The position numbers and the translations under genes were made by a program. The notes under the pieces were generated by a model that saw only the letters and a program-made list of their open reading frames with translations, was not told where the DNA came from and did not search any database. 13,775 bases of DNA from Candidatus Atribacteria bacterium (GTDB lineage: Bacteria > Atribacterota > JALVIU01), in contig JALVIU010000157.1 of assembly GCA_027028665.1 (NCBI GenBank), forward strand, positions 1 through 13,775. Reading direction: 5' to 3'. Positions 1 through 10,681 of the stretch are shown piece by piece; within the stretch, counting starts at the first letter, position 1, and every line of letters starts with the position of its first letter.

Positions 1-821
1 CCATTTACAGGGTTATCTACATAGCAACCTGTTTTCTCCTCTGCCTCTTGCATTTTATCATCATTTATATCTTCGTATTTTACGGGGTCTATCCATAGAC
101 CCTCTATAGAGACATTACTTGCATTTATTATTATAGCTTTCCTTATTAGAGTCCTCGGACCACTTATCCCATCTCCGCTATATCCACCTGTAGGTTTATA
201 TACACCTACTATATGAACAGGCTTATCTATAACTATAGGGTCTCCACCTTCTCTATCTTCCTTAGATGTCTGAACAACGATTATTGTATCCCCAGGATTT
301 GCGTTATTTATAGCATCTTGGAGCTTCTGACTGGCCTTTCTATGGCCTGAATTTACCACTGTCCCTGATGTAGGTGAAGGTGTAGGCGAAGGTGTAGGCG
401 AAGAAGTAACAGGTATTGCATTTACAAGGATCTTACGTGTAATGAATCCCTCCTCATTACCCTTTTTCTTACGAATTGCCTTCCCTAAAAACTCAATAAC
501 TGAAGGATTAGAATCATTATACATTCCTACAAAAGTAGCATCTTCTACAGGTTCTGTAATTAGTGTCTTAAAGTTATCCTCTGGTTGATTAGATACATCT
601 TTCCATGATACAATCTTTACTGGACCTGTCTGCTCTTTATATATAGCTATTGCCATTCTCGCCCCACTTTCTGCGAGATAGTGGAGTTCTTCTCCGCGTA
701 TCTCATTTGAGGCAACAAGGGTATTTGTACTTGAGGTAATATAAAAGGCTATCCCAAATGCAGCAAGTGCACCCATTATAAGAAGTGAAGTAATAAGTAT
801 AAAACCTTTTTCTCTATTCAT
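1..821 (-). CDS. PilX-like minor pilin with Ser/Pro/Thr linker and predicted beta-helix domain (3' end outside window)
   Basis: Open from the ATG at 821 to the window edge, 273 codons seen and no stop. The ATG is preceded by GAGG about 8 bases upstream. Residues 1-6 (MNREKG) form a short prepilin leader. Residues 7-28 are a hydrophobic helix starting FILITSLLI, and residues 44-58 (EELHYLAESGARMAI) match the PilX/GspK-type N-terminal pattern. The residue at +5 after the predicted cleavage is Thr rather than Glu, as in GspK/PilX-type tip subunits. Residues 138-152 are a Ser/Pro/Thr linker (SPTPSPTPSPT). From about residue 164 the sequence reads LQDAINNANPGDTIIV, then VIDKPVHIVG, then ASNVSIEGLWI, which resembles the entry strands and rungs of right-handed parallel beta-helix proteins. 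It is the last visible gene of the pilus operon, 13 bases after the PilW-like gene. Pilin-like membership is likely; the beta-helix and a tip or adhesin role are inferences from a partial protein. Confidence 0.75.
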   Translation of the reverse strand, partial: MNREKGFILITSLLIMGALAAFGIAFYITSSTNTLVASNEIRGEELHYLAESGARMAIAIYKEQTGPVKIVSWKDVSNQPEDNFKTLITEPVEDATFVGMYNDSNPSVIEFLGKAIRKKKGNEEGFITRKILVNAIPVTSSPTPSPTPSPTSGTVVNSGHRKASQKLQDAINNANPGDTIIVVQTSKEDREGGDPIVIDKPVHIVGVYKPTGGYSGDGISGPRTLIRKAIIINASNVSIEGLWIDPVKYEDINDDKMQEAEEKTGCYVDNPVN

Positions 822-834
822 AATATCACCCTCT

Positions 835-1407
835 TTACTTTTCATTAATAACCAATTTTCTTGAAAAGGCCTTTCCCTCTAATATAAAATTCCTCACATG
901 CCCCAGAGGGGTTTTTATTATTTTCTTCGCTCCCACATTAAATGGATATAACTCCAATTTTACATAAACCCCTATTGTTAAGGAAGGGGACTGTGTACTA
1001 TAAATCGGATTAAATATACACGTTTTTACATAAGTATCCGGTGATGTAACAGGATTGTAAGAAGTTTCTCCATTTTTTATTATACCACGACCAAGCACTT
1101 TTGAGCCATTAGAATCCATAACTTTATATTCTATACTATATGTAGATGTATCCCAAATAGTCAATATCTCTTGGTTCTGATTCACAGAGATGGTACTTGC
1201 CCCTCTTACATCTCTTACTATCCAGTCCATAGCAACACGGGCATTCTGTATAAGATTTTCCTCATATTGAGACTTTGTATATATAAAGTGGCCTGTAATG
1301 AAAACTTGATAAAGTGCCCCCATTAGGATGCCTGCCACCACTACAACAATAATAACCTCAATAAGTGTCATTCCTTGTTCACTCTTCTCTATATGCAATA
1401 AGTTCAA
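835..1407 (-). CDS. PilW-like minor pilin
   Basis: A type IV prepilin-like protein. From the TTG start the leader is 12 residues ending in Gly, followed by MTLIEVIIVVVVAGILMGALY. This has Glu at +5 and a single hydrophobic helix, the classic class III signal for prepilin peptidase. After the helix comes QNARVAMDWIVRDVRGAS, typical of PilW/GspJ-like subunits, then a beta-rich C-terminal part. I chose TTG at 1407 because AGGAG lies 7 bases upstream (1415-1419). An in-frame ATG at 1428 would lengthen the leader to 19 residues but has only a weak AAGG in front. Either start lies inside the 3' end of the PilV-like gene, so the two are probably translationally coupled. Assignment to PilW rather than GspJ rests on context and general pattern. 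Confidence 0.85.
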   Translation of the reverse strand: MNLLHIEKSEQGMTLIEVIIVVVVAGILMGALYQVFITGHFIYTKSQYEENLIQNARVAMDWIVRDVRGASTISVNQNQEILTIWDTSTYSIEYKVMDSNGSKVLGRGIIKNGETSYNPVTSPDTYVKTCIFNPIYSTQSPSLTIGVYVKLELYPFNVGAKKIIKTPLGHVRNFILEGKAFSRKLVINEK

Positions 1408-1777
1408 CCCCTTTCTCCTTATTGTCATTTGCCTTATGCACTCTTACCTTTATCTTGTAGTAAATTATGGACTTGGAACCTGCAGGCTGAGATATCTGTG
1501 TAGCACGAGGAATTACAACATATGAATACTTAAATTTAAAGCTATTTATAGTGGTCTCTTCTTCTTCTGGTTCAATAGGTCCAATTTCTGATATAGGCAT
1601 TGCTAAGGCCTCTTCTAATTTAGCCCTTGCGATATTAAATTCAAGTGTTTTGATCTTCGCATAAGTATCTGATTTAACATATGTGCTATAGGCCCCAATA
1701 AGTGCCATTATGCCTATGGCAAGAATCATTATAGAAATTATCACCTCTATAAGGGAAAAACCCTTATCTCTTTTCAA
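1379..1777 (-). CDS. PilV-like minor pilin
   Basis: A 132-residue prepilin-like protein. MKRDKG is the leader, cleavage is predicted after Gly6, and FSLIEVIISIMILAIGIMALIGAY is an N-methylated helix with Glu at +5. The ILAIGIMAL core and the following ARAKLEEALAMP are characteristic of PilV/GspI-type minor pilins. An acidic stretch (EPEEEE) sits near residues 69-74. The start codon is TTG (1775-1777), supported by GGAGG (1784-1788) 6 bases upstream; the only in-frame ATGs (1717, 1711, 1600) fall inside or beyond the pilin helix. It follows the GspH-like gene by 17 bases, and its last 29 bases overlap the PilW-like gene. Minor pilins of this class prime pilus assembly together with the PilW-, PilX- and FimT-like partners encoded alongside. 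Confidence 0.85.
   Translation of the reverse strand: MKRDKGFSLIEVIISIMILAIGIMALIGAYSTYVKSDTYAKIKTLEFNIARAKLEEALAMPISEIGPIEPEEEETTINSFKFKYSYVVIPRATQISQPAGSKSIIYYKIKVRVHKANDNKEKGVELIAYREE
1415..1419 (-). promoter_or_regulatory. Ribosome binding site that decides the PilW-like start
   Basis: AGGAG on the minus strand, 7 bases upstream of TTG at 1405-1407 and within the 3' coding end of the PilV-like gene. It supports the 12-residue prepilin leader over the longer one from ATG 1428. Confidence 0.6.
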
Positions 1778-1794
1778 AATTCACCTCCCAAATT

Positions 1795-2247
1795 TTACCT
1801 ACTTACTCTTATCCTCCCTACCACTGCCTCCACCTTGACAAATATAATATTACCCATCTTATCCTTAATAGTTATAGTACCCCCCGATGAAGGTGTACCA
1901 TTAGGATAGAAACATAAGTTATTAGACCAGTTTGGAAAATTGACATTTATTATATGGGCCATCTTACCAAAACTAATTCTCTTTAATTCCTTTAAATCAT
2001 CACCTCTTATTATTCTATATTCCCATTCCTTTTCTTCATATCCTGACCAAAACTCTATCTTGTAATATACCCCTTCATTTATAGAAGAAAAACGGGCCCA
2101 TAATAAATCTGATGCTAAGGTTTTTGCATAAATATCTTCCTGGTGATTCATATAAGTATTAAAACTTTCTATTATAACACTAAAAAGTATACCAAAAATT
2201 GCTATAACAATTATAAGTTCTATGAAGGTATAACCCGTATATTTCAT
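1795..2247 (-). CDS. GspH/FimT-like pseudopilin
   Basis: A 150-residue pseudopilin. The leader MKYTG is followed by YTFIELIIVIAIFGILFSVI, with Glu at +5 and a hydrophobic helix. The C-terminal half has the GspH/FimT signature: FYPNGTPSSGG, then beta strands, ending in a GRIRVSR-like strand. These subunits sit in the minor-pilin complex that initiates type IV pili or type II pseudopili; the neighbouring pilT favours a pilus. The start is ATG (2245-2247), 13 bases after the pilC stop. No clear Shine-Dalgarno is visible, only A/T-rich sequence, so translation may depend on coupling to pilC. FimT versus GspH naming cannot be settled from sequence alone. Confidence 0.85.
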   Translation of the reverse strand: MKYTGYTFIELIIVIAIFGILFSVIIESFNTYMNHQEDIYAKTLASDLLWARFSSINEGVYYKIEFWSGYEEKEWEYRIIRGDDLKELKRISFGKMAHIINVNFPNWSNNLCFYPNGTPSSGGTITIKDKMGNIIFVKVEAVVGRIRVSR

Positions 2248-2260
2248 TTTTATTAAAATT

Positions 2261-3514
2261 TTACTTTATCGTACCTATCATACTAAATACTGGAAGATAT
2301 ACTGCCATTCCTATAAATAGTACAATAGCACCTAATATAGTAATCATAAATGGCTCTATCATAGAGGCAAGATTATCAGTCATATATGTAACTTCTTTTG
2401 TAAAGAAATCGGAGACCTTCTCTAACATATCTTCCAGGTGCCCTGTCTCTTCGCCCACGGAGATCATATATACTACCATAGGAGGAAAAACACCTGTGTC
2501 TTTTAAAGGAGCTGCAATTCCTTCTCCTCTACTTACTCTATCTCTTGCCGTTGCTATTGCCTGTGAAAATACAATATTATTTACTGTTTTTTCTACTATC
2601 TCCAAAGATTGAAGGATAGGAACGCCGCTCCTTACAAGTGTTGCAAGGGTCTGAGCAAATCTTGCCACAGCCATTTTTAAAAACAATTCTTTAAATATTG
2701 GAACTTTCAAGGAAAATCTATCAAAGAAATTTTTTCCGGGTTTTGTTTTATAAAACGCATATGGAAAAATCATCAAAAAAATAAGTCCCCCTAAGAATAA
2801 AGGTAAATGTTGGTTTACTGCATCAGTTACCCTCATAAGCATTATAGTAGCAAAGGGTAACTTTATATCAAAACCTTTAAATATGCCTAAAAATCTTGGA
2901 AGTATAAAGAATACTGCAAGAGCCACAACTGCAAGAATCAATACACCTACTATTGCAGGATAAGAAAGTGCAGATTTCACTTTCATTCTAAGATCATAAT
3001 CTCTCTCAAGATGATCAGCCAACCTCTCTAAAACCTCATCCAATGTACCACTTACTTCTCCAGCAACTACTAAATTTATGTATAAATCTGTAAATACATT
3101 CTTATATTGACTCAAAGAATCAGAAAGAGAATTGCCTGATTCTATATTTTCTCTTATTGCTCCTATCACTCTTCGCAGATATTTATTTTCTGTCTGTTCT
3201 TCTAATATGCCCAGACACTGAATAAGTGTAAGACCTGCTCCTATCATAGTAGCAAATTGTCTTGAGAATATCACCATATCTCTGGGCTTTACACGTTTTC
3301 CTATAAAGAAATATCTATCAAGGGAAAAACTTCCCATAGAGGAGGTATCTGTATTTCTACTTGCATTACCTCTCGCTTTTATTTCCCTTACAGATACAGG
3401 AAAATAACCCATATTTTGTAAACTTCTTACTACTTCACGCTCATTTTCTGCTTCCATAGTTGCCTCAACTCTTTGTCCTCCTCTGTCTCTGGCAACATAT
3501 AGATAAAGAGGCAT
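2261..3514 (-). CDS. pilC: Type IV pilus inner-membrane platform protein PilC (GspF family)
   Basis: A 417-residue polytopic protein of the PilC/GspF family, the membrane platform on which PilB and PilT act. The opening MPLYLYVARDRGG is typical of the family. Two repeated T2SSF domains are visible, about residues 82-205 and 285-407. Each begins with an F-R/AQ-hydrophobic pattern (FSRQFATMIGAGL; FAQTLATLVRSGVP) and contains a conserved GE turn (VVAGEVSGTLDE; ISVGEETGHLEDM). Membrane segments are about 186-208, 234-256 and 388-412. Length is normal for the family. AGGAG lies just upstream of the ATG. The gene follows pilT by 16 bases. Confidence 0.95.
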   Translation of the reverse strand: MPLYLYVARDRGGQRVEATMEAENEREVVRSLQNMGYFPVSVREIKARGNASRNTDTSSMGSFSLDRYFFIGKRVKPRDMVIFSRQFATMIGAGLTLIQCLGILEEQTENKYLRRVIGAIRENIESGNSLSDSLSQYKNVFTDLYINLVVAGEVSGTLDEVLERLADHLERDYDLRMKVKSALSYPAIVGVLILAVVALAVFFILPRFLGIFKGFDIKLPFATIMLMRVTDAVNQHLPLFLGGLIFLMIFPYAFYKTKPGKNFFDRFSLKVPIFKELFLKMAVARFAQTLATLVRSGVPILQSLEIVEKTVNNIVFSQAIATARDRVSRGEGIAAPLKDTGVFPPMVVYMISVGEETGHLEDMLEKVSDFFTKEVTYMTDNLASMIEPFMITILGAIVLFIGMAVYLPVFSMIGTIK

Positions 3515-3530
3515 AATTATCTCCTAATTT

Positions 3531-4643
3531 TCAAAATTTCTTAATATTGTTTAAATCTCTAGGGATGTCTCTTCCCGTCCTTTTTAAAAGTCTTAGTAAT
3601 TCTTCTTGATTCATAGCACGCTCCAATGCAGTTTCCAAAGATATTTTGCCATCTCCATAAAGTTCACTTAAAGAATAGTCCATTGTCCTCATACCATCTT
3701 TTAGAGAAGTCTGAATTACTGTAGTCAATTGATGAGACTTACCTTCTCTTATAAGATTCCTTACAGCAGGTGTTGCCATCATGATTTCTGTAGCCACCAC
3801 TCTACCTTCTACATCGGATCTTAATAGAAGTTGTTGTGTTATCACGCCTTCTATTACTTCTGATAATTGAATTCTTATCTGTTGTTGCTGATGAGGAGGA
3901 AAAACATCTATAATTCTATCTATTGTTTGAGGTGCAGAAGACGTATGGAGTGTAGAAAACACAAGGTGTCCTGTCTCTGCCGCAGTAATAGCCATTGCTA
4001 TTGTTTCAAGGTCCCTCATCTCTCCTACCAATATTACATCCGGATCTTGACGAAGGACATGTTTTAATGCATTCGCAAAAGAAAGGGTATCCTCTCCTAA
4101 TTCTCTCTGGTTTATAATACTATTTTTATGTTTATGTAAATATTCTATAGGATCTTCTACTGTCATAATATGACACTGCCTCTCCTGGTTTATTATATCT
4201 ATCAAAGAGGCAAGAGTTGTAGATTTACCAGAACCTGTGGGTCCTGTAACCAATACAAATCCCCTTGGTTTTCTTGCAAGCTTTAATAGTGGCTCTACAG
4301 GGAGGCCAAGGGTTTCAAGTTTTGGTATATCCATTGGAATAGATCTAAGAGCAGCTCCCAAGCTACCTCTCTGGTAATATACATTTACCCTGAATCTTCC
4401 TACACCAGGAATTCCATAGGATATATCAAGCTCTTTATCTCTTTCAAATCTTTTTTGGTGTTCCTCACTTAAAATTTCATATAATAATCTTTTTATATCA
4501 GGGGGCGTAAGAGGTGACATATCTACTTTTAAAGGTTTTACAAATCCATGAATCCTCACCATAGGAGGAAGACCAGCTGTTATGTGAATATCAGATGCTC
4601 CCATATTCACAGCTTCTTTTAAGTATTCATCTATAGCAGGCAT
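3531..4643 (-). CDS. pilT: Type IV pilus retraction ATPase PilT
   Basis: A 370-residue hexameric secretion ATPase, cytoplasmic, which powers pilus depolymerisation. It shows MGASDIHIT near residue 14, Walker A GPTGSGKS (134-141), an Asp box VEDPIEY (162-168), Walker B VILVGEMRD with catalytic Glu208, and a His box TGHLVFSTLHT (224-234). The C-terminal AVRNLIREGK (293-302) is the PilT hallmark needed for retraction, and DVFPPHQQQQIR is likewise PilT-type. There is no MshEN domain and no zinc-binding Cys pairs, which separates it from PilB. The ATG is preceded by AAGGAG at 6-base spacing. It lies 26 bases after pilB. Presence of pilT implies dynamic, retractable pili (twitching or DNA uptake). 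Confidence 0.96.
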   Translation of the reverse strand: MPAIDEYLKEAVNMGASDIHITAGLPPMVRIHGFVKPLKVDMSPLTPPDIKRLLYEILSEEHQKRFERDKELDISYGIPGVGRFRVNVYYQRGSLGAALRSIPMDIPKLETLGLPVEPLLKLARKPRGFVLVTGPTGSGKSTTLASLIDIINQERQCHIMTVEDPIEYLHKHKNSIINQRELGEDTLSFANALKHVLRQDPDVILVGEMRDLETIAMAITAAETGHLVFSTLHTSSAPQTIDRIIDVFPPHQQQQIRIQLSEVIEGVITQQLLLRSDVEGRVVATEIMMATPAVRNLIREGKSHQLTTVIQTSLKDGMRTMDYSLSELYGDGKISLETALERAMNQEELLRLLKRTGRDIPRDLNNIKKF

Positions 4644-4669: not shown

Positions 4670-6370
4670 TTAGGAAACAACTCTTAAGGCTTCATCGAAA
4701 CTTGTCACAGCCTCTAATACCTTTCTCATTGCATCTTCTCTTAAGGTAATCATACCCTTTTCTCTTTTGGCATACTCTTTTATTACATCGGAAGATTTTT
4801 TTTCAAGCACCATAGCTCTTATCTTATCATCCATTACCAATATCTCACCCACAACGGTCCTTCCTCTAAATCCTGTATTATTACAATAACTACATCCCTT
4901 CCCTTTTGAAAGTTTAAAATTTTCACTATCCTTTATAAGGCCTAACTCTTTAAATTCAAGTTTTACATCATCTGTAGGTTCGTACTCATATTTACAACGA
5001 GGACAAATCTTTCGCACAAGTCTTTGGGCTATTATACCAAGCACAGAAGATGCTACCATAAAAGGCTCAACTCCCATTTCTACCAAACGTGTAAGGGCAC
5101 TTGCTGCATCATTTGTATGCAAGGTGCTCAAGACAAGATGTCCAGTAAGTGCTGCCTGAATAGCTATTCTTGCCGTCTCCAAATCCCTAATTTCTCCTAT
5201 TAATATTATATCTGGATCCTGTCTCAAGATAGATCTGAGGGCAGTAGAAAATCTAAGATCTATCTTTGGGTTTACTTGGACTTGATTTATACCTTCTATT
5301 TCATACTCTACTGGATCCTCAACTGTAATAATATTTCTCTCAGGAGTATTTAAGACTTGAATAGCAGAATATAGACTTGTAGTTTTACCAGAACCCGTAG
5401 GGCCTGTAACAAGGATTATTCCGTAAGGTTTTTTTATGAGTTCTTTAAATCTATCATAGTTATCCTTAGAATACCCCAGTTCTTCTAATGTCAAAAGGGC
5501 AGCACTCTTATCCAAAAGTCTTATTACAATTTTTTCTCCATAGATAGTAGGAAGGGAAGAAATTCTCAAATCTACTTCCCTATTTCCCACTCCTGTAACA
5601 TATCTCCCATCCTGAGGAAGTCTCCTCTCTGCTATATCCATACCTCCTAAAATCTTTATTCTGGATACTACAGCTGGATGAAGTTCTTTAGAAGAATCAA
5701 ACATATCTCTTAATATACCGTCTATCCTATATCTTACACGCACAATATTTTTTCTTGGCTCTATATGGATATCACTTGCCCTTTCCTGAATAGCTCTGGC
5801 AAGTAAGAGATTTACAAACTTTACAACAGGGGTCTCCTCTGCCATTTCTCTTAATCTATTTACCTCTACATCTTCTTCATTTTGATAATCTTCTCCTATT
5901 TCTCTTACTACATCTTCAAAAGAGTTACTTACATTAGTTCCATAATATTGATCAATTATCCTTTTTATCTCATCTTCAGAAGCTATAACAGTTCTTGTAG
6001 GCATTCCTGTTATAGAACGTATGTGATCTATTGCTCTCACATCCCAGGGGTGTGCCATCGCAATAATTAATTTATCACCATCTTTTCCTATAGGTACAAG
6101 CATGTATTTCTTTGCAAGTTCCCTGGGAACATATGTTATAGCTTCAGGATCTATAATATAATCATCAAGCGATATGTATGAGACCCCAAGTTGAGAAGAG
6201 AGTGCCTTCATTACCTGATCTTTTGTAACCAAACCCATATCTACAAGGATTTGACCCAGAGAACCTTTTGTTTTTCTCTGAATTTCTAAGGCTTTTTCTA
6301 AGTCCTCTTTTGTAATAAGGCCTGCATCAACCAAAATCTCTCCCAGCCTTTTCTTTACAATACCAGCCAA
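4670..6370 (-). CDS. pilB: Type IV pilus extension ATPase PilB with N-terminal MshEN domain
   Basis: The assembly ATPase, 566 residues from the TTG start. Residues about 8-60 form an MshEN domain with two tandem motifs: RLGEILVDAG...Q31 and LGQILVDMG...Q60. This is the arrangement known to bind cyclic di-GMP in this family. The catalytic half has Walker A GPTGSGKT (323-330), Asp box VEDPVEY, Walker B IILIGEIRD (Glu393), and His box TGHLVLSTLHTNDA (409-422). Two Cys pairs (456/459 and 493/496) are the tetracysteine zinc site of PilB/GspE enzymes. I chose TTG at 6370 because the in-frame GTG at 6379 sits inside the Shine-Dalgarno AGAGGTG; the TTG then has 8-base spacing. It is the first gene of the pilus operon. 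Confidence 0.95.
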   Translation of the reverse strand: MAGIVKKRLGEILVDAGLITKEDLEKALEIQRKTKGSLGQILVDMGLVTKDQVMKALSSQLGVSYISLDDYIIDPEAITYVPRELAKKYMLVPIGKDGDKLIIAMAHPWDVRAIDHIRSITGMPTRTVIASEDEIKRIIDQYYGTNVSNSFEDVVREIGEDYQNEEDVEVNRLREMAEETPVVKFVNLLLARAIQERASDIHIEPRKNIVRVRYRIDGILRDMFDSSKELHPAVVSRIKILGGMDIAERRLPQDGRYVTGVGNREVDLRISSLPTIYGEKIVIRLLDKSAALLTLEELGYSKDNYDRFKELIKKPYGIILVTGPTGSGKTTSLYSAIQVLNTPERNIITVEDPVEYEIEGINQVQVNPKIDLRFSTALRSILRQDPDIILIGEIRDLETARIAIQAALTGHLVLSTLHTNDAASALTRLVEMGVEPFMVASSVLGIIAQRLVRKICPRCKYEYEPTDDVKLEFKELGLIKDSENFKLSKGKGCSYCNNTGFRGRTVVGEILVMDDKIRAMVLEKKSSDVIKEYAKREKGMITLREDAMRKVLEAVTSFDEALRVVS

Positions 6371-6378
6371 TAGATTCA

Positions 6379-6382
6379 CCTC
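6379..6382 (-). promoter_or_regulatory. Ribosome binding site that decides the pilB start
   Basis: GAGG (read on the minus strand) lies 8 bases upstream of TTG at 6368-6370. The same sequence forms part of an in-frame GTG at 6377-6379, which would have no Shine-Dalgarno of its own. I therefore prefer the TTG, which shortens the protein by three residues. Confidence 0.6.
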
Positions 6383-6836: not shown

Positions 6837-8075
6837 ATGTTGGATTACAAAAATAACATGCTGTACATAGAAAATGTAAGTATAGAGGAGTTAGCAGAAA
6901 AACATAAAACCCCCCTTTACATATATAGTATGGATCAGATAAATAGGAATATAGAAAAAATAAAAAAGGTATTTGAGGATCTGCCTTTAAAAATAGTGTT
7001 TGCCGTAAAGGCAAATAATAATATCAAAATCCTAAAGAGATTAGGAGATATGGGCATAGGTGCAGATGTAGTAACCATTGGAGAGATTGAAGCAGCCAAA
7101 AGAGCAGGAATTTCTTTTAAAGACATGGTAATAAATGGAAATGCAAAAACAGAAGAAGAGATAGAGTTTGCAATTAGAAACGATTTCTTTATGATCAATG
7201 TAGATTCTCCGGATGAATTCGAAATAGTAGAAGATTTTGCAAAAAAGTTAGGCAAAAAACCTAATATATCATTTAGACTAAATCCAGATGTAGACCCAAA
7301 AACACATCCCCATATATCTACGGGCTTAAAAAAGAATAAATTTGGTATAAACTTTGAAGTAGGGTATTTATTAATAAAAGAAGCACATAAAAGTCCTTAT
7401 GTGAATTTTAAGGGCGTACATACTCATATAGGTTCTCAAATATTAGAAGTAAGCCCATTTTACGATGCTTTCACCAAGGTAAAAGAACTTATATCAAGAC
7501 TTAAGAGGAAAAGGATATCCCTTGAGTATTATAATATAGGGGGAGGATGGGGAATAGATTACAAAAGGACAGGGGAAGGATTAGACCTTAATGAATATAA
7601 AGAAAAGGTAATTCCCATTTTAAAAAGTATGAATGTTAAGATTATATTTGAACCTGGAAGGTTTCTTATAGGCAATGCAGGGGCCTTAGTGGGGAAAGTA
7701 CTTCTTACCAAAATAAATGAAGGAAAAAGATTTATTTTTGTAGATATAGGTATGAATGACCTGATAAGACCATCTCTATATGATGCATATCATCATATAC
7801 TACCAGTTAAAAAAGTGAAAAGACCAGAAATCGTAGCAGATATAATGGGACAGTTATGTGAAAGTGGAGATAAAGTAGCAGAGGGTAGAAAGATACCCGA
7901 AATGGAAAAGGATGAATATTTAGTAGTATGTGATACAGGAGCGTACGGCTATTCCATGGCGTCAAACTATAATTCACGCCCCAAGCCTGAAGAGATACTT
8001 ATAGAGGGAGATAAGGTTTCTATAATAAGGAAAAGGGAAACAATAAACGATATGTTCTCTCTTATCCCAGATTAG
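6837..8075 (+). CDS. lysA: Diaminopimelate decarboxylase LysA
   Basis: Catalyses the last step of lysine synthesis, meso-diaminopimelate to L-lysine plus CO2, in the cytosol with pyridoxal phosphate. The 412-residue protein is full length for this fold-type III enzyme. PLP-binding Lys58 sits in FAVKANNN; HTHIGSQ (195-201), GGGWGIDY (235-242) and EPGR (272-275) bind cofactor phosphate and substrate. The catalytic Cys341 from the partner subunit is in CESGD, and the C-terminal GAYGYSMASNYN (368-379) is the usual closing motif. HTHIGSQ and CESGD are as in LysA rather than ornithine decarboxylases. It is a single-gene unit, and its stop codon lies inside its own terminator hairpin, overlapping the cyclase gene by 14 bases. 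No other dap gene is visible. Confidence 0.95.
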   Translation: MLDYKNNMLYIENVSIEELAEKHKTPLYIYSMDQINRNIEKIKKVFEDLPLKIVFAVKANNNIKILKRLGDMGIGADVVTIGEIEAAKRAGISFKDMVINGNAKTEEEIEFAIRNDFFMINVDSPDEFEIVEDFAKKLGKKPNISFRLNPDVDPKTHPHISTGLKKNKFGINFEVGYLLIKEAHKSPYVNFKGVHTHIGSQILEVSPFYDAFTKVKELISRLKRKRISLEYYNIGGGWGIDYKRTGEGLDLNEYKEKVIPILKSMNVKIIFEPGRFLIGNAGALVGKVLLTKINEGKRFIFVDIGMNDLIRPSLYDAYHHILPVKKVKRPEIVADIMGQLCESGDKVAEGRKIPEMEKDEYLVVCDTGAYGYSMASNYNSRPKPEEILIEGDKVSIIRKRETINDMFSLIPD

Positions 8076-9198
8076 AGAGGCTATCCTCTCTAATCTGGGC
8101 TTTTTTCTCTTTATATGCTTTTTTATCTTCATACATTCTCTCATCTGCTAATTCTATTAAAGCTTCAGGAGTTTTTACTTCATTTATATCTGCCCAGCCT
8201 GCACTTATGGTCACCTCTCCGTTAAAACCATCGATGGGAGATGTAGCACTCCATTCTTTCAATTTCTTTCTTATTTTATTAACAATCAACTTTGTATCGA
8301 AAAAAGAGGTTTCTGGTAAAATTAAAACAAGTTCATCTCCTCCATAACGTACAGGAATATCTATTGACCTTATATTTTCTTTTATAATTCTACTTATTTC
8401 ACGTAAAACCTTATCTCCAGTAAGATGACCAAAATTATCATTTATATATTTGAAATCATTTATATCAAATATTACCAAAGACAAATTTCTATTATATCTC
8501 TTTGCTCTTTCATATTCTCTCTTTAATGCCTCATCAAAAAACCTCCTATTATAAAGTCCAGTAAGGGTATCTATTACTGCCAAAGACATAACTTCATTAT
8601 ATAAAACACTCTGGGTTAAGGCATTGGAAAGGTAATTTAAGATACTATTAAAAATTTTCATCTCATGATCTGTAAATTTTATTTTCTCATTTCTCCAAAT
8701 AGCAAACATTACACCTCTAAATTTTTTCTTTTCGTAAAAAGGACCTATAAGAGACGAAGCAAAATCAAAAATATTACTATACGAATCATCTTCATCTATA
8801 AGAATATTCCACCCATCTACTATGTTCTCATCTATTTTTATAATCTCTTTTATTTTTGGAAAAAAGGATAATGGCATAAAGTTATAAGGCATAACAACTG
8901 CCTGTCTATCTTTTAAAAAGAAATCATCAAGTACAAGCCCCTCTTTTTCTTGATCCCACACATATATATCTACTTCATCACAATCAAAAACCTTTATAAC
9001 TGCATCGCCTATCTTTCTGTATATAGTGGTTTTGTCCTTTGTCTCGGAAAGTTCTTTGTTTAAATTAAAAAATACATGGTCAATATTTTTTATATATAAA
9101 ATCTCTATATTAGAAATCTCTGAACCCTCTGTGGAACAGATAAAAGAACGGACCCTATTAAGGATGCTTATAAGCCAATTCTTTAAGTTCATCTTCAT
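8062..9198 (-). CDS. GAF-GGDEF diguanylate cyclase
   Basis: A 378-residue predicted cyclic di-GMP synthase. Residues about 55-200 look like a GAF sensory domain (TTIYRKIGDAVIKVFDCDEVDIYVWD through FRGVMFAIW and FTDHEMKIFNSI). The GGDEF domain starts at DTLTGLYNRR (210-219), has metal-binding Asp245 in FDIND, the active site GGDEL (286-290, Leu for Phe, an allowed variant), and ADERMY (351-356). RSID (277-280) lies five residues before GGDEL and is an intact RxxD inhibitory site, so product feedback is expected. No clear transmembrane helix is seen; residues 5-20 may be an amphipathic helix. The start ATG lies 41 bases inside the upstream membrane-protein gene, so the two are probably coupled. 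The ligand of the GAF domain is unknown. Confidence 0.92.
   Translation of the reverse strand: MKMNLKNWLISILNRVRSFICSTEGSEISNIEILYIKNIDHVFFNLNKELSETKDKTTIYRKIGDAVIKVFDCDEVDIYVWDQEKEGLVLDDFFLKDRQAVVMPYNFMPLSFFPKIKEIIKIDENIVDGWNILIDEDDSYSNIFDFASSLIGPFYEKKKFRGVMFAIWRNEKIKFTDHEMKIFNSILNYLSNALTQSVLYNEVMSLAVIDTLTGLYNRRFFDEALKREYERAKRYNRNLSLVIFDINDFKYINDNFGHLTGDKVLREISRIIKENIRSIDIPVRYGGDELVLILPETSFFDTKLIVNKIRKKLKEWSATSPIDGFNGEVTISAGWADINEVKTPEALIELADERMYEDKKAYKEKKAQIREDSLSNLG
8066..8106 (+). terminator. Rho-independent terminator of lysA
   Basis: A perfect 15-bp stem, CCCAGATTAGAGAGG (8066-8080) and its complement (8085-8099), with a 4-base CTAT loop, then C and six Ts (8101-8106). The T-run exists only in the rightward direction. 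Read leftward, the same DNA codes for the last 12 residues of the GGDEF protein and could still form a hairpin, but without a U-tract. Confidence 0.9.
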
Positions 9199-10681
9199 AA
9201 TCCCTCACCTCTATTCTTACAAGCTCAGCATGTATTTTTAATGTAATAAGTTTTTTATTAAGTTCATCTTTTTTATCTAAAATTTTATTTACTGTTTTCA
9301 CAGAAAGCTTATTTCCTTTTAAAAATTCCTCTTTTATGCCTTCTAAGTTAGTGAGATAACCTATGAGGATAGCCCGTAATTCATAACTATTAAGCTCAGG
9401 AAAATTCTTATGAATATAGTCTTTTATGATACTAAGCTCTCTCCTTTTATTTTTAATATATTGCAATTCTCTGCGAATCCTATAAGATTCTAATCTCATT
9501 TCAGAAAGATATTCTTCATTTACCTCAAAGATAAAATCAGGATCAAATCTCTTTCTTATAGAAAAAGCATTTTCAAAGTTCCTTTTTTGAAATCTATTTA
9601 ATTTCCGTCTTCCCTCATAAATAGTTTTACCAAAAATCTCCTTAAGCAGTTTTTTTCTTGAGTTTTCGACTTCATCCTCTAAAGCACTATTGGCAAATGC
9701 ATTATGATCTGGCCAAAACAAATGTTCTGCATTTATTTCATATCCTGGAAACTTCTCATTTAATTGCAAAAGCACACGTCCTGTTCTTATTTCTATCGTT
9801 TTCATAATGGCCTTAAACCAGAGTTTTCCATCTATATTTACAATAGAAAGAGCGATCTTTTCAAAAGTAGGAATTTGCACCATATCCTTTATTTTTTGAA
9901 GCACTGCATTTCCTTTCATTTGCTCTGAAAGCTTATTATCATTTAGCGTAAAATAGGCACCATCATACCAATCTTCCAAAAGCTTTATATCATATCCTAT
10001 TAAGCGCTCTTCCTCATCAACCCTTAAAGGATGAGTAAGTGCAAACATAGAAGAAATCATAAATTCCTCTTCAGTCATAATCTTTCCATTCGAAGAAAGA
10101 GGGCGAAAAGCATCCATAGATTCAAGAAATGCCAATATATCCTCATCATTTGTGGGATCAAAATTAAGATAGTTTTTAGCAAGCTCAAGGGGAATATTTT
10201 TTAATATATTAAGAAGCTCTCTTCTATATCTTTCTATTTCCTCTTTTCTCTTTTTAAGTCTATTTTCATCGTAAAGTAACGAGGCCTCACGACTAAATAT
10301 ATATCTCCAAAGGTGTTCCAGGTGTTTCTTTCTTTTTGATTTCTTTTTGTCTTCCAATAAATTTAAAAAATTAGCCTGAGCCACAATCATACTCTTTGAT
10401 GCAAGTAAATTACCCACAAACTTAAAAACAAGACCAAGAATACTTGCCAAAATAAAGATGATAGAAAATCCTGCTATACCACTATATGGAAGGACAGCCT
10501 TTCCTATGATGATCTTCGTAAAAAGATTTACAAAATAACCCAGAAGGGCTATCATAGAGGTTCTCTTCAGGCCGTTTTTCCACAGAAAAGTACCTATAGA
10601 TGATAATATGTATGGCACGTCAAGAAGAGACTTTGCATCTAATATTCCATCTTTTATTGACCTAAAAAGACGAAAAACCAT
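9158..10681 (-). CDS. Unrecognised membrane protein with long charged helical C-terminal region
   Basis: I do not recognise this 507-residue protein. Two hydrophobic segments, about residues 41-60 and 66-92, probably form a membrane hairpin. A strongly basic patch follows (DKKKSKRKKH, 111-120), suggesting the rest is cytoplasmic. Beyond that it is highly charged and mostly helical, with Glu/Lys/Arg-rich stretches near 138-160 and 395-425 and another at 450-505 that look like coiled coil. No Walker, protease or nuclease motif is apparent. The ATG has GGGAGGG about 6 bases upstream and a consensus promoter close by. It is first in a two-gene unit and overlaps the GAF-GGDEF gene by 41 bases, so a role in c-di-GMP or envelope signalling is a guess from context only. 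Confidence 0.85.
   Translation of the reverse strand: MVFRLFRSIKDGILDAKSLLDVPYILSSIGTFLWKNGLKRTSMIALLGYFVNLFTKIIIGKAVLPYSGIAGFSIIFILASILGLVFKFVGNLLASKSMIVAQANFLNLLEDKKKSKRKKHLEHLWRYIFSREASLLYDENRLKKRKEEIERYRRELLNILKNIPLELAKNYLNFDPTNDEDILAFLESMDAFRPLSSNGKIMTEEEFMISSMFALTHPLRVDEEERLIGYDIKLLEDWYDGAYFTLNDNKLSEQMKGNAVLQKIKDMVQIPTFEKIALSIVNIDGKLWFKAIMKTIEIRTGRVLLQLNEKFPGYEINAEHLFWPDHNAFANSALEDEVENSRKKLLKEIFGKTIYEGRRKLNRFQKRNFENAFSIRKRFDPDFIFEVNEEYLSEMRLESYRIRRELQYIKNKRRELSIIKDYIHKNFPELNSYELRAILIGYLTNLEGIKEEFLKGNKLSVKTVNKILDKKDELNKKLITLKIHAELVRIEVRDYEDELKELAYKHP

Follow-up and report, generated by a model that had tools for sequence, protein, structure and literature searches.

What is encoded by an open frame that begins as a pilin, follows directly on a set of type IV pilus genes and continues as a different fold until the sequence ends? 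This question is raised by the left end of the window, which is an entire contig (G000:C157; 13,775 bases) of a draft genome in 413 contigs (90%-complete, 1.79 Mb). The original prediction took the frame for a pilin-like protein that displays a beta-helix, possibly carbohydrate-binding, on the tip of a retractable pilus. Our own answer, which we consider somewhat probable, is a K-type tip pilin of a retractable pilus displaying a ligand-binding beta-helix module. The locus has the prepilin features, the gene order, the pilin homology, the linker and the predicted start of a beta-helix; ligand binding by the helix, and the chemistry of that binding, are what we infer. The features are listed in Table 1.

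Table 1. Coordinates of the K-position prepilin gene, its parts and the adjoining pilus genes in the window (a slash marks the leader cleavage site)
Feature	Position	Strand	Basis
K-position (PilX/GspK-like) prepilin with C-terminal beta-helix (predicted)	1..821	minus	open frame, ATG 821, GAGGGTGAT upstream
Class III leader MNREKG and hydrophobic N-terminal helix	732..821	minus	sequence; PilX_N match, subthreshold
Remainder of pilin module, through TRKILVNA	411..731	minus	alignment and phmmer against same-phylum K-pilins
Ser/Thr/Pro linker TSSPTPSPTPSPTSGT	362..409, bounds approximate	minus	translation
Right-handed beta-helix (predicted), first rungs, N-terminal cap LQDAINNANPGDTIIV	1..361	minus	TIGR04247, shuffles, AF2, fold neighbours
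J-position prepilin, G/MTLIE, Glu5 present	835..1428	minus	N_methyl E 3.3e-7
I/PilV-like prepilin, G/FSLIE, Glu5 present	1379..1777	minus	N_methyl E 1.3e-8; PilV model E 1e-7, subthreshold
H-like prepilin, G/YTFIE, Glu5 present	1795..2247	minus	N_methyl E 2.3e-5; GspH E 0.0046, subthreshold
pilC, platform protein	2261..3514	minus	T2SSF E 3e-68
pilT, retraction ATPase	3531..4643	minus	TIGR01420 494 bits, cut-off 319 exceeded
pilB, assembly ATPase, N-terminal c-di-GMP-binding (MshEN) region	4670..6379	minus	T2SSE E 4.6e-141; MshEN E 1.4e-22; NF053729 E 3.2e-20

The coordinates and reading frame first proposed for the gene hold. The ribosome-binding-like GAGGGTGAT precedes the ATG, and the frame meets no stop codon on its way to the window edge and is still open at base 1. 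A total of 273 residues is present, and the contig stops before the 3' end of the gene. No contig of the same assembly overlaps the left end of the window, and the remainder of the gene was not found there; searches of the genome for it with PF13229 and TIGR04247 returned only two self-contained beta-helix genes, on contigs C98 and C145. Because the module is cut in this way, any ligand-binding or catalytic residues and any further rungs would lie outside the available sequence. The gene on C145 (L306; positions 240-2456) encodes a putative lipoprotein, recognised by its GGC lipobox, in which a very long Thr/Pro linker precedes another right-handed beta-helix; within one genome it repeats the linker-plus-helix plan of the K-position prepilin, but on another anchor.

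The protein starts as a type IV prepilin does, with a short basic leader of six residues ending in Gly and then a hydrophobic helix (MNREKG/FILITSLLIMGALAAFGIAFYI). The cleavage context is MNREKG/FILITSLLIMG, so the mature protein begins F1 I2 L3 I4 T5, with Thr at position +5 and without Glu5. The pilin part ends near TRKILVNAIPV and is followed by TSSPTPSPTPSPTSGT, LQDAINNANPGDTIIV and more beta-rich sequence as far as the window edge. Two elements of the original prediction, a PilX/GspK-like N-terminus lacking Glu at +5 and a Ser/Pro/Thr linker after the pilin part, are thus borne out, the former by the sequence together with a PilX_N (PF14341) match over residues 13-62 (E 0.0086) that scores 16.5 bits against a Pfam cut-off of 25.5. 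The curated GspK model NF037980, which is matched by 39 of 80 PilX_N-type proteins, has no match at E <= 5 in residues 9-159. In phmmer searches, PilX_N proteins of the same phylum match the K-position prepilin at E of about 1e-4, and the alignment with these K-pilins spans from the leader to TRKILVN / TRKIQVN. Despite the subthreshold profile score, the alignment to members that exceed the cut-off supports PilX_N homology. At the two loci read, the same-phylum PilX_N proteins sit directly after a J-like prepilin.

No close relative of the whole protein (P0001) was found among the genome contigs or plasmids searched, nor one of its helix part among the viral contigs searched. A scan of genome contigs with PilB retrieved Armatimonadota and cyanobacterial loci via unusual peptides and is uninformative on relatives. 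In PDB sequence searches, neither the protein nor its helix part, nor a K-pilin from the same phylum or a profile of K-pilins, found a meaningful match; these searches did not reach ComZ (see below).

The genes on the minus strand follow the order pilB-pilT-pilC-H-I-J-K, in which the truncated gene encodes the fourth minor pilin. This is the H-I-J-K order of a K-type pilin, with profile matches to the H-type, I/PilV-type and general prepilin models. Glu5 is kept in the H, I and J prepilins and is absent only from the K-position one. We assign the protein as the tip-capping K subunit because it alone among the four minor pilins is without Glu5 and because it stands in the K position; the subthreshold PilX_N score and the missing GspK match speak against this. 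In other systems the K subunit caps the tip complex (PMC9934059), and by analogy with K-subunit biology (GspK, ComZ) and with modular pilins, this protein would be located at the pilus tip.

That the pilus is retractable, as had been proposed, is supported by the adjoining PilT retraction ATPase, whose score exceeds the curated cut-off. Another contig (L308, G000:C221; positions 1-3971) carries one cluster encoding PilN- and PilO-like proteins, then a protein of 189 aa in the position of PilP, and lastly a PilQ-like secretin, the names PilN, PilO and PilP resting on gene position and general appearance. Given this cluster together with the operon, the organism has the components of a type IVa pilus that can retract. 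The PilQ-like secretin carries a Pro/Thr linker of its own. A search for PilY1 was uninformative, since the control genomes were silent. Close to pilB, with lysA in between, lies a GGDEF diguanylate cyclase gene (8062-9198, minus strand), and this proximity and the MshEN region of PilB make c-di-GMP control of the pilus possible. The GGDEF gene is overlapped by 41 bases by a gene (9158-10681, minus strand) whose 507-residue product matches nothing in NCBIfam at E <= 1e-10.

For the region after the linker, the first line of evidence for a beta-helix is a profile match. Positions 1-70 of the NosD profile TIGR04247 match residues 175-258 with E 4.6e-5 (1.3e-4 for the isolated 122 residues), so that the N-terminal cap and first rungs correspond to the start of the profile. 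The score is 22.2 bits against a curated cut-off of 300, in a truncated gene that covers 70 of the 377 profile positions. NosD is a periplasmic maturation protein of nitrous-oxide reductase. Nine shuffles of the helix segment gave no NosD match and one unrelated match (E 0.13).

The original prediction had proposed a structure model as a check, and an AF2 model of residues 160-281 predicts the start of a right-handed beta-helix; block pLDDT reaches 80-91 for the cap helix and the first strands, the mean is 64 and the pTM is 0.58. Its input alignment included 18 viral beta-helix relatives; the model is partly circular because these were picked by the beta-helix cap motif, and the NosD profile match is independent of that choice. 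Run on the mature protein as a single sequence, AF2 gave an unusable model (pLDDT 36.6). When the model was compared with known structures, the top two Foldseek matches were PL6 alginate lyases, at weak E-values above 0.1. Nearly all VIA-align rows were right-handed beta-helices aligned mostly at the early rungs (best Z 3.7, which is low), and the neighbours were pectin methylesterase, pectate lyase, PL6 alginate lyases and the P22/Sf6 tailspikes. ComZ and tapirin are absent from these rows, an absence that does not exclude either. Profile match, clean shuffles, model and fold neighbours agree with the beta-helix originally suggested, as a predicted right-handed parallel beta-helix with an N-terminal helical cap, for its first rungs only.

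The comparison that had been drawn with the tapirins of Caldicellulosiruptor finds no support. Tapirins have a C-terminal beta-helix domain, and their genes lie beside type IV pilus genes. The tapirin model NF051896 has no match at E <= 5 in either the pilin part or the helix part of the truncated gene. The nearest characterised analogue, and a closer precedent than tapirin, is ComZ of Thermus thermophilus, a GspK-like pilin with a large beta-solenoid, encoded next to three other pilin genes, that binds DNA and is the proposed tip receptor for transformation (PMC6561018).

ComZ thus provides the main rival to our reading, namely that the tip pilin catches DNA via its beta-solenoid region for natural transformation. 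The plan of the two proteins is the same, and the genome encodes ComEC (PF03772, E 2.2e-47) along with the PilQ-like secretin. However, ComEC is weak support and does not discriminate, as it occurs in 42 of 50 genomes of the phylum regardless of the K-pilin module. Moreover, the ComZ solenoid is ice-binding-protein-like and is inserted, by short linkers, between the last two strands of the pilin sheet (PMC6561018), whereas the module here is of the NosD/pectate-lyase type and comes after a flexible Ser/Thr/Pro linker; any return to the last pilin strand would fall beyond the contig end. We regard a DNA receptor as a serious, if rather unlikely, alternative.

How common such an arrangement is can be judged from other K-pilins. 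PilX_N matches were found in 13 of 50 genomes of the phylum, the window's own counted. GspK/PilX_N minor pilins, among them DUF4900 and DUF7305 proteins, have the same PilX_N-type N-terminus and, at the two loci read, the same position after a J-like prepilin; the pilin module is common to the same-phylum members, and the C-terminal module differs. In the proteins of the phylum that were scanned, the shared pilin module is followed by matches of ice-binding-like, DUF4900, DUF7305 or bactofilin-like type, mostly below curated cut-offs, and a W-x-E-type motif often ends the protein. In a wider survey with one genome per species, 92 of 386 genomes had PilX_N matches, in frames of 121 to 2817 residues. 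Simple motif searches in a selection of 80 of these proteins found neither a pectate-lyase cap motif nor a long Pro/Thr/Ser linker in any of them (0/80), and a Pfam scan of 79 found DUF4900 in 10 and HHH_3 in 10. One other of these proteins, from a different lineage (L388; 286-2136, minus strand), has a subthreshold match to the right-handed beta-helix family PF13229 near its C-terminus (E 1.2e-4). Judged by these sequences, a solenoid-like module on a K-pilin appears to be ordinary, and a beta-helix of this type on a Ser/Thr/Pro linker appears to be rare in the sample. There are also very large PilX_N frames of 1441 and 1484 residues (L301 and L302), and a large PilX_N pilin of 827 residues (L294) with repeated Asp/Gly-rich (VCBS/FG-GAP-like) text, in which a propeller module was suggested by eye.

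The diversity of these modules lends something to a second rival, in which the K subunit serves only to prime assembly of the pilus and the beta-helix caps it sterically, with no specific ligand: across the 386 genomes it is common for K-like pilins to have C-terminal domains that differ greatly and often lack distinctive features. But a long flexible linker would be superfluous in a cap, and a pure cap hardly calls for so elaborate a structure as a beta-helix. We give this explanation rather little credence, less than the DNA receptor. Much less probable still is a polysaccharide-cleaving enzyme (lyase or esterase) on the pilus tip. The structural neighbours do include PL6 alginate lyases, pectate lyase and pectin methylesterase, but the fold is common to many non-enzymes, the catalytic rungs would fall beyond the contig end, and the isolated module matches no Pfam family at E <= 5. 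Finally, a chimeric contig end, at which the assembler misjoined an unrelated beta-helix gene to the pilin gene, is highly improbable: the feature does lie at the edge of one of the 413 contigs in a draft assembly, but the frame is unbroken from pilin through linker to helix, G+C is steady at 0.37-0.41 across bases 1-800, and PT-rich linkers are native to the genome (before the C145 beta-helix and in the secretin).

We thus return to a tip pilin with a ligand-binding head. The gene product would be the K-type minor pilin in a type IVa pilus that retracts. Cleavage by the prepilin peptidase would let it assemble with the H, I and J pilins into the tip complex, which, being bulky and without Glu5, it would cap. 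The pilin body would lead through the flexible Ser/Thr/Pro linker to the right-handed parallel beta-helix, displayed on the pilus tip, which would most likely bind an extracellular ligand (a polysaccharide or another surface polymer) for attachment and pulling. Such a ligand is favoured because of the fold class, and carbohydrate binding by the module, as originally suggested, is plausible. Right-handed beta-helices serve in polysaccharide binding or cleavage, but have other roles too. A more specific version, which we advance tentatively and think may well be wrong, is that this tip pilin has exchanged a solenoid of the ComZ/DUF4900 type for a flexibly linked beta-helix of the pectate-lyase type. 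The retractable pilus would thereby gain a head that binds or cleaves polysaccharide, and the K-pilin would be a conserved chassis whose effector site can be swapped.

Modular pilins are widespread, with 264 architectures (PMC8179133). In Streptococcus sanguinis, the tip pilins PilB (vWA) and PilC (lectin) likewise have a functional module joined by a loop to the pilin module and displayed at the pilus tip (PMC8179133, PMC9934059), with the differences that their modules are vWA and lectin and that PilB has Glu5. Literature searches on tapirin and type IV pili, NosD and pilin, and the pectin-lyase fold and type IV pili brought up no description of such a fusion. A functional module fused to a tip pilin is a known design, of which a beta-helix module of this kind is an unusual variant, and the novelty is modest. 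If our reading is true, a polysaccharide-lyase-type fold would join the modules known on pilus tips, and the K-pilin would be, as the comparisons suggest, a chassis that carries different solenoids among the lineages of one phylum. It would also hint at how uncultured bacteria may grip specific polymers with retractable pili.
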